In this document: piece by piece, positions 14,668 to 19,488 of the stretch | Layout: every line of letters begins with the position of its first letter | Numbering within the stretch: the stretch's first letter is position 1 | Source of the DNA: Robertkochia marina | Lineage (GTDB): Bacteria; Bacteroidota; Bacteroidia; Flavobacteriales; Flavobacteriaceae | Assembly (NCBI RefSeq): GCF_004799345.1 | Contig: NZ_SSMC01000001.1 | Location: 1,116,001-1,180,000 of the forward strand | Reading direction: 5' to 3' | Length of the DNA stretch: 64,000 nucleotides | The notes under the pieces: model-generated | What the model saw: only the letters and a program-made list of their open reading frames with translations | Told to the model about the DNA's origin: nothing | Databases searched by the model: none | Program-made: the position numbers and the translations under genes

Positions 14668-16365
14668 ATGAAAATTAAAAGTTTAGAATTAAAAAATGAG
14701 CAAAGAATTGAATTGGGTAAAATCTCGGTACTTGTTGGTGCAAACAATGTAGGTAAATCCCAAACTTTAAGAGATATTCAAGGGAGAATGCAAGAGGGTT
14801 TGGCGAGTAAATTTGTTTTACTAGAGCATATTAATTTTGAAAAACCAGATAGTTTCGATGATTTATTATCCGCTTTGAAAGTATCTGACAGTCCACGACA
14901 CATAGGCAATAAAATAATCGTTGGAATTAATAAGAATCTAACTGAACAAGATAGTTTTGAATTGAATTATGATCATTCAAAAAATAGATTTGAACAGGAA
15001 GAAAACTTGGACTGGATTCTTGGAAATATTGCAAAGTTCAAAGTATCTCATTTAGATTCCTCGACCAGATTAAATTTAATTAAAACAACACACTCATTTA
15101 ATCCAGATTCAGAAGACCCTACTAATATTCTTCAAAATCTTTTTCTAAATAAGAAAAATGAGGAACTATTGAGACTTGCTTTCAATGAAGCCTTTAGTAT
15201 GCAAATTATGCTTGATTATAGTGGTTTAAAGGATTTTTGCTTAAGGGTTGCCAAAGAGTTTCCAGAAATACCTGAAGACCCACGCAAGGCTTATTTGATT
15301 ACAAAAGACTTTAATAAGATAGATAATCAAGGTGATGGTTTTAGAAGTTTTGTTGGCATTGTATTGAGCTTGCTATTTTCAAAAGATAGAATTGTATTAT
15401 TAGACGAGCCAGAGGCATTCCTACACCCAGCTCAAGCTCGTTATTTGGGCAAGTGGATTGCAGATAATTCAGATAAACTTTCTGGACAACTTATTGTTTC
15501 TACACACAATTCCAACTTTTTAAGTGGACTACTGCAAAGTGATAAATTAGTAGATATATATAGACTAAATAGAGTGGATGATGTTACAACATTCCAGTTA
15601 ATTCCACCAGATGCAACTGAAAATTTATCAAAATCGCCAATGCTGTCTAGTCAAAGAGTTCTTGAAGCTATTTTCCACAAAGCCGTAATTGTCTGTGAAG
15701 CTGATGCTGATAGAATTGTTTATCAGACTGTTTCTGCCCTACATCATAATAATCAAGAAATTCTTTTTGTCTATTCTCATAATAAGCAAACCCTTAAAGA
15801 TGTTGCCTCTTTACTTATTGCTACGAAAATTCCAGTAGGAGTTATTTCCGATATCGATATTTTGAATGATGAAACTGATTTTAAAAATCTTTATGAAGCC
15901 GTAACTAAATCAGTAACACCACCTGATTTACTTGCTTCTAGAAAGGAAATTGCTGAATCAGTTGATAATTCTTCTGAAGAAAAAGCATTAGAAAACTTAA
16001 AAGAAAATATCGCAGAATTCTATCAACAGTTAAATGATAATGAACATTCTTTTGGAGGGGCTAGAGGAGCATTAAATCGGATTAGAAAAGCAACTTCAAA
16101 ATGGAGCTTACCAAAAAAAAATGGGGTTGAGGGTTTCAGTGAAGAAATAAAACCAAAAGTGAATCAAATAATAGAGGAGCTCAATGAAAAGAATATTTTT
16201 ATTTTACCAGTTGGCGAATTAGAAGGTTGGATGGAATTGGGAACAAGTAGAAAAAATAAATGGATAGTACTAGCTTTGAATGAGATTTTTGATAAAAAGA
16301 CATCTAAAGAATTAGTTGAATTTGTTGCCATGATTCTTAAAAATGTAATAAAAAACGTTGCCTAA
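14668..16365 (+). CDS. OLD-family ATPase with TOPRIM nuclease domain
   Basis: The protein has 565 residues. The N-terminal ABC-type ATPase shows Walker A GANNVGKSQ (about 26-34), a signature-like GDGFRSFVGIVLSLL, Walker B IVLLDEPEAFLHP and the switch histidine in IVSTHNSNF. The C-terminal part is TOPRIM-like: VIVCEADADRIVY with the catalytic glutamate, then GVISDIDILND with acidic metal ligands. This is the architecture of the P2 OLD nuclease and of the nuclease subunits of several anti-phage systems. No UvrD-like helicase (GajB) or AriB-like partner follows, so it resembles a single-gene OLD system. The downstream gene is the convergent integrase. Confidence 0.88.
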   Translation: MKIKSLELKNEQRIELGKISVLVGANNVGKSQTLRDIQGRMQEGLASKFVLLEHINFEKPDSFDDLLSALKVSDSPRHIGNKIIVGINKNLTEQDSFELNYDHSKNRFEQEENLDWILGNIAKFKVSHLDSSTRLNLIKTTHSFNPDSEDPTNILQNLFLNKKNEELLRLAFNEAFSMQIMLDYSGLKDFCLRVAKEFPEIPEDPRKAYLITKDFNKIDNQGDGFRSFVGIVLSLLFSKDRIVLLDEPEAFLHPAQARYLGKWIADNSDKLSGQLIVSTHNSNFLSGLLQSDKLVDIYRLNRVDDVTTFQLIPPDATENLSKSPMLSSQRVLEAIFHKAVIVCEADADRIVYQTVSALHHNNQEILFVYSHNKQTLKDVASLLIATKIPVGVISDIDILNDETDFKNLYEAVTKSVTPPDLLASRKEIAESVDNSSEEKALENLKENIAEFYQQLNDNEHSFGGARGALNRIRKATSKWSLPKKNGVEGFSEEIKPKVNQIIEELNEKNIFILPVGELEGWMELGTSRKNKWIVLALNEIFDKKTSKELVEFVAMILKNVIKNVA

Positions 16366-16401
16366 TTCTGTATATAAAGCATAATTAAAACTTCCTTTCA
16401 T

Positions 16402-16439
16402 CTCGTTTACAGGCCCTCAAACCAGGCTAGGTAAACGAG
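16402..16439. terminator. Hairpin, copy 3, between OLD nuclease and integrase
   Basis: Arms ctcgtttac and gtaaacgag (9 bp) enclose aggccctcaaaccaggctag. The hairpin lies between two convergent genes and could terminate both, although the T-run is poor. Sequence on both sides matches the DNA around copy 1 at 2614. Confidence 0.7.
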
Positions 16440-16519
16440 CTATTTTATACTTCCCTTTTCAGGAAACCATCCAAACAAGCCAAACATAAAAGGGTGAAAA
16501 ATTAATAGGGAAAGAAGGG

Positions 16520-17755
16520 TTATTTGATAGCGGAGTTATTTTGGTCCAGTTGCTTCAATTTTTCTTTGAGCAGACCCACGTCTTCTCCCAACTTTCGGTC
16601 GATGATCTTGGCGTAATGCTGGGTGGTTTTGATGGATCGGTGACCTAGCATCTTACTTACCGATTCAATAGGTACGCCATTCGCCAGGGTTACCGTGGTG
16701 GCAAACGTATGACGGGCCATGTGAAAGGTAAGGTCTTTGGTGATGCCGCAGAGCACAGCGATCTCCTTTAAAAAGGCATTCGTCTTTTGATTGCTGGAAT
16801 AGGGTAGGAGGGCGTTGTTAGGGTATTCCTGTTCATTGTATTTCTCAATGATTTCCTGGGCCATTTCCAGTAAGGGGATGTTACTAATCGTTCCTGTTTT
16901 GGTTCGCTTCACCCTTAGCCATTGATCACCATCAATACCCAGAACAATATCGTCCGGGGTAAGTTTGCAGACATCGCTATAGGAGAGTCCGGTATAGCAG
17001 GAGAAAATAAACAGATCCCTTACCTGTTCCAGGCGCTTGTACCTTAATTCCTTTTGGATGATACTCACCAATTCTTTGCGGGTTAAAAACTCCCTTTCCT
17101 TTTGTTGAAGCCTCACCTTAAAGTTGTAAAAGGGATCCTGGTCGATCCATCCGTTACCATAGCATATCCGGACGATCTTTTTAAAGTATGCCAGGTATTT
17201 CATTGCCGAGTTATGTGCCAGGTGTTTCTCTGTTTTTAAGTAGTATATAAACGCATTGATAAAGGTGGTTTGAATGCGTTTGACATTGATGTCTTCAGCG
17301 TCGTAATTGGCCTGAATGAAGTCACTAAGATGGCTCTTGGTGGTCTTATAGCGCTGAAGGGTGCGGAAGGAGAATTCTTTGCCTACCAGTTTCTCCATCT
17401 TCTGATTGTGAACTTCTAAAACGTCAAGGATGTACCTGTGGGTCTCTTCAATACCGAGATATCTGTTCTTGATCCTTTTAGCTGTGATCTCCTCTTCCCG
17501 GTCTAATAATTCCTGATAGGTGATAAATACATGCTTTCTGATAATATCCAGATGGTGGTTTACATGTTTTGCCTCTGCTGAATGTCCCATCACCTTATTG
17601 GCCTTTGCATTCCATCTTTTGAGATTTGCAGAGAGGAAGGTGCTGGCTTCTGCACGCATGCCATTGTAGGTGATGCGTAAATAGATCATCCCTTTTTCCG
17701 GGTCTTTAAGCCTGTTTTTTCTGATGTAGAACAATATGGAAAGCAGATCTTGCAT
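16520..17755 (-). CDS. Tyrosine-type site-specific integrase
   Basis: The protein has 411 residues. It shows the usual Bacteroidota order: an N-terminal arm-binding domain (LSILFYIRKNRLKDPEKGMIYLRI...), a SAM-like core-binding domain (about 105-205), and a C-terminal catalytic domain. That domain has FSCYTGLSYSDVCKL, the HxxR box HMARHTFATT, GHRSIKTT and the nucleophile in QHYAKI. It lies 240 bp inside the tRNA-Leu 3' end, facing away from it, which is the normal position for an integrase of a tRNA-targeting island. Nested inverted repeats at 17842-17886 lie in its upstream region. A near-identical C-terminal fragment survives at 2733-2935. Confidence 0.95.
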   Translation of the reverse strand: MQDLLSILFYIRKNRLKDPEKGMIYLRITYNGMRAEASTFLSANLKRWNAKANKVMGHSAEAKHVNHHLDIIRKHVFITYQELLDREEEITAKRIKNRYLGIEETHRYILDVLEVHNQKMEKLVGKEFSFRTLQRYKTTKSHLSDFIQANYDAEDINVKRIQTTFINAFIYYLKTEKHLAHNSAMKYLAYFKKIVRICYGNGWIDQDPFYNFKVRLQQKEREFLTRKELVSIIQKELRYKRLEQVRDLFIFSCYTGLSYSDVCKLTPDDIVLGIDGDQWLRVKRTKTGTISNIPLLEMAQEIIEKYNEQEYPNNALLPYSSNQKTNAFLKEIAVLCGITKDLTFHMARHTFATTVTLANGVPIESVSKMLGHRSIKTTQHYAKIIDRKLGEDVGLLKEKLKQLDQNNSAIK

Positions 17756-17841: not shown

Positions 17842-17886
17842 TAATTCGGTGGCGCAAGATCTGCGCTGATGATAGTCACCGAATTA
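17842..17886. promoter_or_regulatory. Nested inverted repeats upstream of the integrase
   Basis: Outer perfect arms taattcggtg (17842-17851) and caccgaatta (17877-17886) enclose inner arms gcgca (17852-17856) and tgcgc (17862-17866). They lie 87-131 bp upstream of the integrase start and about 110 bp from the att site. Candidate roles are integrase arm-binding sites or an operator. Confidence 0.5.
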
Positions 17887-17936
17887 GACACCTTTCAAGT
17901 GATATTTTTTGATATCAAATGAAATCAGTAAAAAAG

Positions 17937-17974
17937 AAAAACCCCGTAAACACTGGTGTTTTACGGGGTTTTGA
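17937..17974 (-). terminator. Replacement terminator downstream of tRNA-Leu
   Basis: The sequence aaccccgtaaa-cactggtg-tttacggggtt forms a strong hairpin with a T-rich minus-strand tail, 22 bp beyond the tRNA 3' end. It lies inside the island border, so it was probably brought in by the island to replace the terminator left at 8373-8401. Confidence 0.75.
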
Positions 17975-17994
17975 TGTGAATTGGAATTTTAAAA

Positions 17995-18009
17995 GTACTC
18001 GAGGTGGGA
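17995..18009. repeat. Proximal attachment site inside tRNA-Leu
   Basis: These 15 bases, identical to 8412-8426, cover the discriminator base, the acceptor 3' strand and part of the T arm of tRNA-Leu. Together the two copies define the island ends. Confidence 0.75.
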
Positions 18010-18077
18010 ATCGAACCCACACTCCCGAAAGAACTGGATTTTGAATCCAGCGCGTCTACCAATTCCGCCACTCGAGC
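17996..18077 (-). tRNA. tRNA-Leu (anticodon CAA)
   Basis: On the minus strand the 82-nt gene begins GCTCGAGTGGCGGAATTGG and ends CTCGAGTA. The anticodon arm CTGGA-TTCAAAA-TCCAG gives anticodon CAA. A class II variable arm (ttctttcgggag region) and the TTCGATTC T-loop are present. The acceptor pairs in seven positions, with a G-T wobble at the end. CCA is not encoded. It is complete despite an island inserted at its 3' end and a GIY-YIG cassette at its 5' side. Confidence 0.95.
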
Positions 18078-18078
18078 A

Positions 18079-18324
18079 TTATGTTTGATCTCGGAGAGAT
18101 CTTAATTTTTCTTTTCCAATTCCAGACTTCCAATATTTTTCACGAATTCTGGCCTCTTTTCTGTCCTTGCAAACTTCGTGATAAATTAGTTTAAAAGGAA
18201 GATAATGTCTGGTTGTTTTTTCCCTTCCTTTATTATGTCGCCGAATTCGTTCTTCAATATCCTTCGTTTGACCAACATAAATATAGTTGTGTTCCAAACT
18301 TGATATGGCGTAAACGTAAATCAT
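18079..18324 (-). CDS. GIY-YIG endonuclease embedded in tRNA-Leu sequence
   Basis: The protein has 81 residues, a single GIY-YIG domain. Residues: the first strand IYVYAISS, the YVGQT strand, the catalytic arginine in IEERIRRHNKG, and the catalytic glutamate in KEARIREKYWKSGIGK. The start codon takes its A and T from the anticodon-loop end of a duplicated tRNA-Leu 5' half, and the TAA stop ends one base before the intact tRNA. There is no independent promoter or Shine-Dalgarno site, so it is probably transcribed from the tRNA promoter within a tRNA precursor. Small GIY-YIG genes are common in Flavobacteriia. Here the arrangement suggests a homing-like cassette. Confidence 0.9.
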   Translation of the reverse strand: MIYVYAISSLEHNYIYVGQTKDIEERIRRHNKGREKTTRHYLPFKLIYHEVCKDRKEARIREKYWKSGIGKEKLRSLRDQT

Positions 18325-18405
18325 TTTGAATCCAGCGCGCCTGCCTGTCGGCAGACAGGTCTACCAATTCCGACCTGCCTGCCGACAGGCAGGCACTCGA
18401 GCATT
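18323..18405 (-). pseudogene. Broken duplicate of the tRNA-Leu 5' half with two palindrome insertions
   Basis: Read on the minus strand, the 43 bases from just before the tRNA start to the end of the anticodon loop are repeated here, interrupted by two 20-21-bp palindromic inserts at 18340-18359 and 18373-18393. Apart from the inserts the match to 18038-18080 is essentially perfect. There is no 3' half, so this cannot be a working tRNA. Confidence 0.92.
18340..18393. repeat. Two copies of a 20-bp palindromic repeat
   Basis: cctgcctgtcggcagacagg lies at 18340-18359 and cctgcctgccgacaggcagg at 18374-18393, separated by 14 bases, 13 of them tRNA sequence. Each can fold into an 8-bp stem with a 4-base loop. 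A third copy lies at 52746-52765, and diverged forms occur at 7927 and 8164. Confidence 0.85.
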
Positions 18406-18486
18406 GAGAGTGCAAAACTATAAAATATTTTTATTTGCAAAACTAAAATTACCAAGATTTATCCTTTACCACTACGAATAAATTTC

Positions 18487-18494
18487 TAAATTTG
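18487..18494 (+). promoter_or_regulatory. -7 box of the prs promoter
   Basis: TAAATTTG matches the TAnnTTTG box of the Bacteroidota primary sigma factor and lies 52 bp before the prs start. No convincing TTG -33 element was found at the usual distance. Confidence 0.55.
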
Positions 18495-18546
18495 CACCCT
18501 GTTTAAAACAACACAACATTAACGAACTACTAAACAGAACATTAAG

Positions 18547-19488
18547 ATGCCATATTCAGTACCGGATCCAAAGATTTTTGCCTGTACCCAGAGTGAGAAA
18601 CTCGGGCGAAAAATAGCCAAGGCTTTTGGGCAGGAATTAGGAAATGTAAAGTTTTCAAGGTATAGCGATGGGGAGTTTCAACCCTCATTTGAAGAGTCGG
18701 TGCGCGGTGCCCGTGTGTTTATCATAGGGTCTACCCACCCCAGCTCTGACAACCTCATGGAAATGTTACTGATGTTGGATGCAGCGAAAAGAGCTTCAGC
18801 ACGTCATATTACTGCCGTGATGCCTTATTTCGGATGGGCGCGTCAGGACAGAAAAGACAAGCCAAGGGTTCCGATAGGGGCCAAGATGATCGCTAAAATA
18901 TTAGAGGCGGCAGGAGCCACCCGTATTATTACGATGGACCTGCATGCCGATCAGATTCAAGGGTTCTTTGAAAGACCGGTCGACCATTTGTTTGCGTCTA
19001 CCATCTTTTTGCCTTATCTGGAAAGCCTGAAGCTGGAGAACCTTACGGTAGCTTCACCCGATATGGGAGGTTCGAAAAGGGCCTATGCCTACTCGAAATT
19101 CCTGGGTAGTGAGGTAGTGATCTGTTACAAGCAGCGTAAGCAGGCCAATGTGATTGACCATATGGAGCTTATCGGGGAAGTAAAAGGACGTCATGTGGTA
19201 TTGGTTGACGATATGGTAGATACTGCCGGAACCCTGACCAAGGCAGCCGACCTGATGATGGAGCGGGGTGCGCTCAGCGTAAGAGCAATTACCACCCATG
19301 CCATCCTTTCAGGAAATGCCTATGAGCGTATCGAAAACTCAAAGCTTACCGAGCTTATCGTTACCGATTCGATCCCGCTTAAACAGGAAAGTGAAAAGAT
19401 CAAAGTACTTACATGTGCCAATCTTTTTGCTGATGTGATGCACAGGGTGCACCACAATACTTCGATCGCCTCGAAGTTTTTAATGTAG
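18547..19488 (+). CDS. prs: Ribose-phosphate pyrophosphokinase
   Basis: The 313-residue length is normal for class I PRPP synthetase. Visible features are the ATP-binding FSRYSDGEFQPSFEESVRG region, the AVMPYFGWARQDRK flexible loop, the metal-binding DLHADQIQGFF and the PRPP loop VVLVDDMVDTAGTL. It makes PRPP from ribose-5-phosphate and ATP for nucleotide, His and Trp synthesis. It is followed after 23 bp by rplY and then pth, a common bacterial neighbourhood, and is probably cotranscribed with rplY. Confidence 0.97.
   Translation: MPYSVPDPKIFACTQSEKLGRKIAKAFGQELGNVKFSRYSDGEFQPSFEESVRGARVFIIGSTHPSSDNLMEMLLMLDAAKRASARHITAVMPYFGWARQDRKDKPRVPIGAKMIAKILEAAGATRIITMDLHADQIQGFFERPVDHLFASTIFLPYLESLKLENLTVASPDMGGSKRAYAYSKFLGSEVVICYKQRKQANVIDHMELIGEVKGRHVVLVDDMVDTAGTLTKAADLMMERGALSVRAITTHAILSGNAYERIENSKLTELIVTDSIPLKQESEKIKVLTCANLFADVMHRVHHNTSIASKFLM

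Follow-up and report, generated by a model that had tools for sequence, protein, structure and literature searches.

Integrative elements with tyrosine integrases use tRNA genes as insertion sites and make them whole again with a segment that they bring along. Free-standing homing endonucleases, mostly LAGLIDADG but once GIY-YIG, have been described as mORFs from fungal mitochondria (Glomus sp. and the atp6 gene of Allomyces; PMC3630166), and in phage T6 cutting by the endonuclease SegB causes a tRNA segment to be amplified in tandem through recombination (PMC13096335). Short palindromic repeats with a CGTC tag are reported, in the portion of the source drawn on here, without a dedicated transposase (PMC3733652). 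An arrangement in which a cassette sits in a tRNA gene and carries one half of it was not found described among the open-access articles listed as matches, as far as their titles and the beginnings of their abstracts go. Here we compare with these systems a locus from Robertkochia marina, which lies in a window of 64,000 nucleotides (the whole stretch of DNA that was analysed). Genome labels (G followed by a number) and locus labels (L followed by a number) are those of the analysis; G000 is the window's own genome.

The initial annotation had described, on the minus strand, a tRNA-Leu 5' half running into a GIY-YIG ORF that is followed by an intact tRNA-Leu, and the sequence, ARAGORN, Rfam and PF01541 agree with it. 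The parts of the locus are:

18413..18441, minus strand: promoter-like TTTG, 17 nt, TAGTTTTG (read from the sequence), apparently the ancestral tRNA's promoter, now heading the whole cassette
18323..18402, minus strand: tRNA-Leu(CAA) 5' remnant, made up of 40 nt of tRNA and two palindromes, with its anticodon-loop end at CAAAAT
18374..18393, no strand: palindrome 1, type T1, 20 bp, at tRNA index 8-9, ahead of the D-stem
18340..18359, no strand: palindrome 2, type T1, 20 bp, at tRNA index 23, the 3' edge of the D-loop
18079..18324, minus strand: GIY-YIG nuclease ORF of 81 aa (PF01541, E 8.3e-19), whose ATG at 18324 overlaps the end of the remnant
17995..18077, minus strand: intact tRNA-Leu(CAA), restored by the cassette (ARAGORN; Rfam tRNA, E 8.2e-13)
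17935..17971, minus strand: terminator-like hairpin and T-run, 3' of the intact tRNA (read from the sequence)

The combination of TTTG, 17 nt and TAGTTTTG is one that we take to be the Bacteroidota-type promoter consensus. A duplicated tRNA half is present as claimed, but it is not the uninterrupted 43-nt copy of the earlier description: it holds 40 nt of tRNA, into which two 20-bp palindromes are set. The ORF stop (TAA) is followed on the minus strand by one base and then by the start of the intact tRNA-Leu(CAA), a sequence present once in its own genome, where the other match in a DNA search is tRNA-Leu(TAA), at 75%. Directly past the intact tRNA lies a tyrosine integrase gene (17755-16520), and positions 14668-17755 of the window also hold a gene for an OLD-like ATPase (PADLOC Old, E 1.3e-19); the intact tRNA-Leu may also serve a defence island as its attachment site.

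The ORF matches PF01541 at 68.1 bits (curated cut-off 22.6), and this is its sole domain: it is not the HUH tyrosine transposase gene of a REPtron. Y5, Y16, G18, R26, H30 and E62 are all present in the window protein; among 19 aligned proteins Y5, Y16 and E62 are invariant, and R26 is found in at least 90%. The conserved Tyr, Arg and Glu are presumably the GIY-YIG active-site residues. The nearest sequences with solved structures are those of UPF0213 (1zg2 and 1ywl), then SLX1; intron-associated endonuclease 1 is also among the relatives of this kind (E 0.029). Both SLX1 and intron-associated endonuclease 1 act on DNA.

With the window protein as query, relatives at E<=1e-12 were found in 42 of 249 genomes of the same family; a profile of 19 members detected them, at the same threshold, in 134 of 296 genomes of the phylum. 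On named contigs this profile gave at least 543 confirmed stretches, of which the best 80 of 543 were used. Loci are the best-scoring matches to a set built from tRNA-adjacent members: because the set was seeded in this way, the fractions given here describe this family, not GIY-YIG genes at large. In a first pass, 136 of 166 loci had a same-strand tRNA 0-400 bp away, and at 125 of these 136 at least 14 nt of that tRNA were repeated across the ORF (control, 3/136). Deduplication by identical protein starts left 148 loci: 132 adjoin a same-strand tRNA (Leu 86, Arg 25, Ser 7, Ala 6, Met 4, Cys 4) and 16, by that rule, do not. The 132 take two mirror forms, with the ORF before the tRNA (DN, 98 loci) or after it (UP, 34 loci).

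With a clear remnant taken as a tRNA fragment across the ORF that reaches a score of 28, such a fragment is present at 121 of the 132 tRNA-adjacent loci (91/98 DN, 30/34 UP) and in 2 of 396 control windows; these 121 loci thus have a duplicate gene end, one copy intact and one a remnant, beside an endonuclease ORF, as mORFs do. Because of this recurrence the arrangement is not due to chance, and the search for GIY-YIG ORFs between a partial and a full tRNA, which the initial annotation had proposed as a check, has come out in its favour. The two patterns that it had named as contrary do occur in part: the gene without the duplication at the 11 of 132 loci that have no clear remnant by the score used, and the duplication without the gene at L013, L103 and L056, each with a second partial tRNA that has no ORF of its own. 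We read both as decayed or nested cases. Inspection by eye of the 16 non-adjacent loci finds pieces of tRNA at seven, where an array or a contig ends (L025, L073, L123, L137, L139, L143, L151), and places eight at protein-coding genes (L002, L044, L047, L051, L081, L083, L085, L086); L003 shows neither setting.

Named hosts outside the Bacteroidota include members of the Ignavibacteriota, Balneolota, Nitrospirota, Omnitrophota, Doudnabacteria, Paceibacterota, Parcubacteria and Saccharibacteria and one Pseudomonadota MAG, several of these hosts being MAGs, in which binning errors are possible. A viral collection gave three confirmed relatives among 80 pattern matches, and plasmids gave no relatives at 1e-5. 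That related cassettes, most of them marked by short palindromes, occur in many tRNA genes of many bacteria points to a mobile element of a widespread kind.

In the loci read, the unit consists of remnant, ORF and tRNA, and the cassette holds only the small ORF. At 65 of 98 DN loci the end of the remnant lies between -6 and +5 relative to the first anticodon base; the remnant of UP loci has a scattered start, from -34 to +33 around the anticodon, with 13 of 34 within 10. A promoter motif, TAnnTTTG, was sought in 69 DN loci of single copy whose remnant starts at base 1. It stands no more than 60 nt before the remnant in 43/69 (upstream control windows, 5/69), with its end 10-13 nt before the remnant in 26 of those 43, and between ORF and tRNA in 9/69; in the empty sites L055 and L057 (see below) it directly precedes the tRNA. 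That the cassette lies behind the tRNA promoter, as had been claimed, is thus borne out by the position of the motif, from which transcription of the cassette would be predicted.

At L122 a native tRNA-Leu 5' part (with the acceptor strand GCTCAAG) is followed by a complete foreign tRNA-Leu, terminator-like sequence, the ORF and the native 3' end, and the acceptor strands of the two native parts are complementary. Of all the loci, this one demonstrates insertion into a tRNA gene most plainly. A 5' remnant before the intact tRNA is also found in 9 of 34 UP loci, and a further tRNA 3' fragment past the intact tRNA in 8 of 98 DN loci; at one of these eight, L113, the further stretch (index 11-83, with an alignment score of 108) amounts to an almost entire second tRNA-Leu-like copy. 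Two or more family ORFs share one strand at 22 of 148 loci, and G483 has five family copies 450 bp apart. The tandem units of some loci could arise because the target, once rebuilt, may be cut again.

The place orthologous to the window locus was found via the prs-side flank in seven genomes, with one genome per species in the comparison. It is filled at L054, L056, L058 and L059 and empty at L055 (G223) and L057 (G251), both of the same genus, and at L060 (G013): in the empty sites the promoter leads straight into the tRNA. Among the five genomes of the genus examined, three are filled (G000, G249, G250) and two empty (G223, G251). The comparison of relatives with and without the cassette at this tRNA-Leu, likewise proposed earlier, therefore shows one site both with and without the cassette in closely related genomes, as for a homing element. 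The window's intact tRNA has the same sequence as the tRNA at the empty site of G223, with a different upstream flank; a recognition site within the tRNA would therefore survive insertion. The empty sites could also arise by precise loss via recombination between the repeats.

A quick tree of the 148 proteins was built from 80 columns, and 8 of its 145 inner branches are starred. One of these (SH-aLRT 99) unites the tRNA-Leu type, with 95 proteins that include three of Ser and two of unassigned target, and within it DN and UP forms, several phyla and five Leu anticodons stand side by side. Most Arg(TCG) proteins group apart (branch 89), as do the Met, Ala and Arg(ACG) types together with two Arg(TCG) proteins (branch 90), so that Arg(TCG) stands in two branches; the epimerase-gene type forms a separate branch (87). 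Target labels are clustered on the tree, where they need 57 changes, as against 94.9 on average for shuffled labels and as few in 0 of 200 shuffles, and the target tRNA family is largely predictable from the protein clade. The claim that the cassette landed in a tRNA gene and restores the tRNA by the half it carries thus gains comparative support, from the empty sites of congeners, from the remnants at 121 of 132 loci, from the promoter motif ahead of the remnant and from the broad agreement of protein clade with target. The window protein is 75% identical to that of Marixanthotalea and 74% identical to that of a congener (recorded as R. marina); the corresponding values for the prs protein are 79% and 95%. 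Proteins from Flavobacteriaceae (L143) and Paceibacterota (L160) share 77% identity at a dS of 1.04, and dN/dS, where computable for close pairs, is 0.03-0.29, with dS saturated in many pairs. From the intermingling of phyla in the tree, and from protein against flank identity within the genus, we infer horizontal spread, as for a homing element.

Palindromes are a regular part of the remnants. A filter detected a hairpin insert in 111 of the 121 clear remnants, mostly at the D- or T-loop, and 8 of its 10 misses have one by eye (L013, L068, L076, L103, L117, L152, L154, L158), which leaves L071 and L079 without. DN inserts lie at tRNA index 22-23 (67), 8-9 (20) and 14-17 (16), and 21 UP inserts at index 56-69, around the T-loop. 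Palindromes are stacked at one site in L101, L102, L126, L132 and L144. The stacks of L144, L132, L126 and L101 hold two or three palindromes at a single T-loop or D-loop site and look like recurrent insertion. In the window's own genome the palindromes belong to a dispersed family: a pattern search that allowed up to 1 mismatch matched 43 sites in forward and 49 in reverse orientation, and the reversed pattern, as a control, matched 0. As in a REPtron, dispersed palindromes match those beside the gene. By eye, the dispersed copies lie within simple tandem repeats in 8 of 20 stretches.

Nuclease clades (among them C2, with the motif SAAGRR) and palindrome types (T1, T2) were defined after the sequences had been seen; so defined, palindrome type tracks nuclease clade more than host. 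Among 42 Flavobacteriaceae loci with a passing insert, T2 is found at 11/11 C2 loci and at 2/31 loci of other clades, and G226, G212 and G144 hold both types, each beside the matching clade. Genome-wide pattern searches covered 28 genomes, with clades taken from the loci read only. T2 was found in 7/8 C2-only, 2/3 mixed and 0/14 other-clade genomes, T1 in 2/8, 2/3 and 14/14, respectively; the three empty-site genomes have T1, and G013 also T2. These counts include the cassette's own copies, which are the sole T1 in G102, the sole T2 in G232 and in G144, and 3/4 in G212. Across the phylum T1 occurs in 25 of 296 genomes, and 22 of these 25 are family-positive as against 112 of the 271 others (Fisher 8e-6, kinship not controlled). 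A role of the palindromes at the RNA level is not supported: sense hairpins are not favoured (34 sense, 59 antisense and 15 equal among 108 distinct inserts). On the idea that the inserts guard against mispairing, ViennaRNA gave a mean acceptor-stem probability of 0.046 with inserts, 0.011 without and 0.967 for the tRNA alone (48 filtered loci), values that we distrust because the multiloop parameters may favour enclosing pairs.

The family extends to protein-coding genes. The window genome's own paralogue L002 (G000:C2:415330-415548) and L044, L051, L085 and L086 each stand behind the duplicated 5' end of a gene that we assume, from its GGAGF motif, to be epimerase-like, with the full gene next. 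This subfamily has similar ends, around CCCGTGAAAT and ATTTCACAGGT. Small GIY-YIG cassettes also split integrase-like genes (named by reading) at L081 and L083, where a restored copy is not evident. Among 28 further small GIY-YIG loci, 10 lie between inverted repeats (score of at least 13, above every control; one additional locus was excluded as too short). Another own paralogue, L004 (L239; G000:C1:677149-677343), is flanked by the inverted repeat GGAGATCGCCACG, which is matched 48+40 times in its own genome with up to 1 mismatch (control, 1+0). Many of 16 stretches around these copies read CGTCTTCGCGA...CGTGGCGATCTCC, repeats resembling, by eye, the CGTC-tagged repeats as given in the part of the source drawn on (PMC3733652).

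We consider it likely that the locus represents a GIY-YIG cassette of the homing type, which enters tRNA genes close to the anticodon arm and rebuilds the tRNA from a half that it carries. The small GIY-YIG protein would cleave a tRNA gene within its anticodon arm or close by, and the break would be repaired from a cassette-bearing copy, with the tRNA sequence on either side of the nuclease gene as portable homology. The outcome, visible in the anatomy of the loci, would be a split host tRNA from which a carried 5' half (DN), 3' half (UP) or whole foreign tRNA (L122) makes an intact one. In DN loci the ancestral tRNA promoter, placed by its motif, would drive remnant, nuclease and restored tRNA in one transcript. 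The palindromes, present and of clade-linked type, disrupt the leftover D- or T-arm and may thereby block self-cutting or precise loss by repeat recombination. Several points count against this account: the restored tRNA looks like a complete target, from whose continual cutting the host would have to escape; UP junctions are scattered; 11 of 132 loci lack a clear remnant; precise loss could also have produced the empty sites; the 80-column tree has 8 of 145 inner branches starred, with Arg(TCG) loci in two branches and three Ser loci in the Leu branch; and hairpins in the sense RNA are not favoured among the palindromes. If the account is true, many genes annotated only as small GIY-YIG (at least 543 stretches) may be tiny selfish tRNA-gene cassettes of little cost to the host, and the unit would be a very small one of the homing type (about 0.3 kb, one domain) whose choice of target is largely readable from the protein.

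A second reading overlaps with the homing-type cassette and differs in what is primary: the palindromes would be the mobile units, made or spread by the small GIY-YIG nuclease, and the tRNA cassette an autonomous copy at a safe site. That palindrome type follows nuclease clade, both at the loci (including those of G226, G212 and G144) and in the genome-wide distributions of T1 and T2, speaks for this, as does the inverted repeat of L004 with its many matches. Clade-specific palindromes could, however, pass by descent within the cassette; part of the genome-wide copies are the cassette's own (G102, G232, G144, G212); types and clade motifs were set with the sequences in view. Moreover, two C2 genomes, G200 and G226, have no T2, G013 has T2 but no close C2 match, T1 is missing from G144, and G125, G032 and G354 have palindromes without a family match at 1e-12, though more distant small GIY-YIG ORFs occur there. 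We therefore hold this reading tentatively, as possible but rather doubtful.

The rough match of clade with tRNA family and the DN break near the anticodon would also suit a protein that acts on tRNA rather than DNA, as an anticodon-type RNase or toxin whose gene stays at the cognate tRNA for regulation or immunity; yet the split tRNA gene of L122, the two mirror geometries, the tandem units and the protein-coding-gene subfamily point to insertion at the level of DNA, as do the DNA-acting SLX1 and intron-associated endonuclease 1 (E 0.029) among the solved-structure relatives, and we regard such a protein as unlikely. It is more improbable still that tRNA-targeting tyrosine-integrase islands carry the cassette as a passenger. 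The integrase gene just past the window's tRNA and the extra tRNA 3' fragment of eight DN loci, perhaps an integrase attachment repeat, are in keeping with a passenger, but the DN break lies near the anticodon and the units read comprise remnant, small ORF and tRNA only. Anticodon loops of bacterial tRNA-Leu are known intron sites, and the ORF has a weak match, below cut-off, to TIGR01453 (the NCBIfam model of group I intron endonucleases); against a group I intron or its relic stand the completeness of the restored tRNA, for which splicing is not needed, and the Rfam searches, in which positions 17850-18560 of the window matched no intron up to E 1 and 12 further loci, at the gathering threshold, matched tRNA only. 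With no Rfam match to an intron core we rejected the intron, which we find barely credible.

Beyond the homing-type cassette, a broader proposal makes small GIY-YIG nucleases the dedicated mobilisers that have been missing for short palindromic repeats, in the Bacteroidota and other phyla and including repeats like the CGTC-tagged ones: each clade would make and spread its own palindrome, and the tRNA cassette would be the form found in an essential gene, which it rebuilds. We offer this as a conjecture, with doubt outweighing confidence. If it is true, the link between nuclease clade and palindrome type makes testable a question raised by the part of PMC3733652 considered here: what moves repeats without a known transposase. 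In that source REPtrons (REP plus RAYT) resemble the cassette in having short dispersed palindromes beside the gene of a presumed mobiliser; their enzyme is an HUH tyrosine transposase, whereas that of the cassette is GIY-YIG and its palindromes lie inside tRNA remnants. Integrative elements share the insertion in a tRNA gene and its restoration; unlike them, the cassette has no integrase and its unit is about 0.3 kb.

To judge from the portions of the reports cited, the cassette is nearest in kind to the mORFs of fungal mitochondria and to SegB. Like the cassette, SegB is a free-standing GIY-YIG homing endonuclease adjoining a tRNA gene; it is phage-borne, and the part of its description drawn on mentions neither a split or regenerated tRNA half nor palindromes, whereas the cassette is found in cellular hosts (PMC13096335). 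The mORFs, as that source presents them, share with the cassette the insertion in an essential gene, the replacement gene end carried along and the native end left as a remnant (PMC3630166). They belong to organelles, protein genes and C-terminal ends; the cassette belongs to bacterial chromosomes and tRNA genes, of which it can carry either half, and unlike the mORFs it combines an enzyme of 81 aa with clade-specific palindromes in the remnant.
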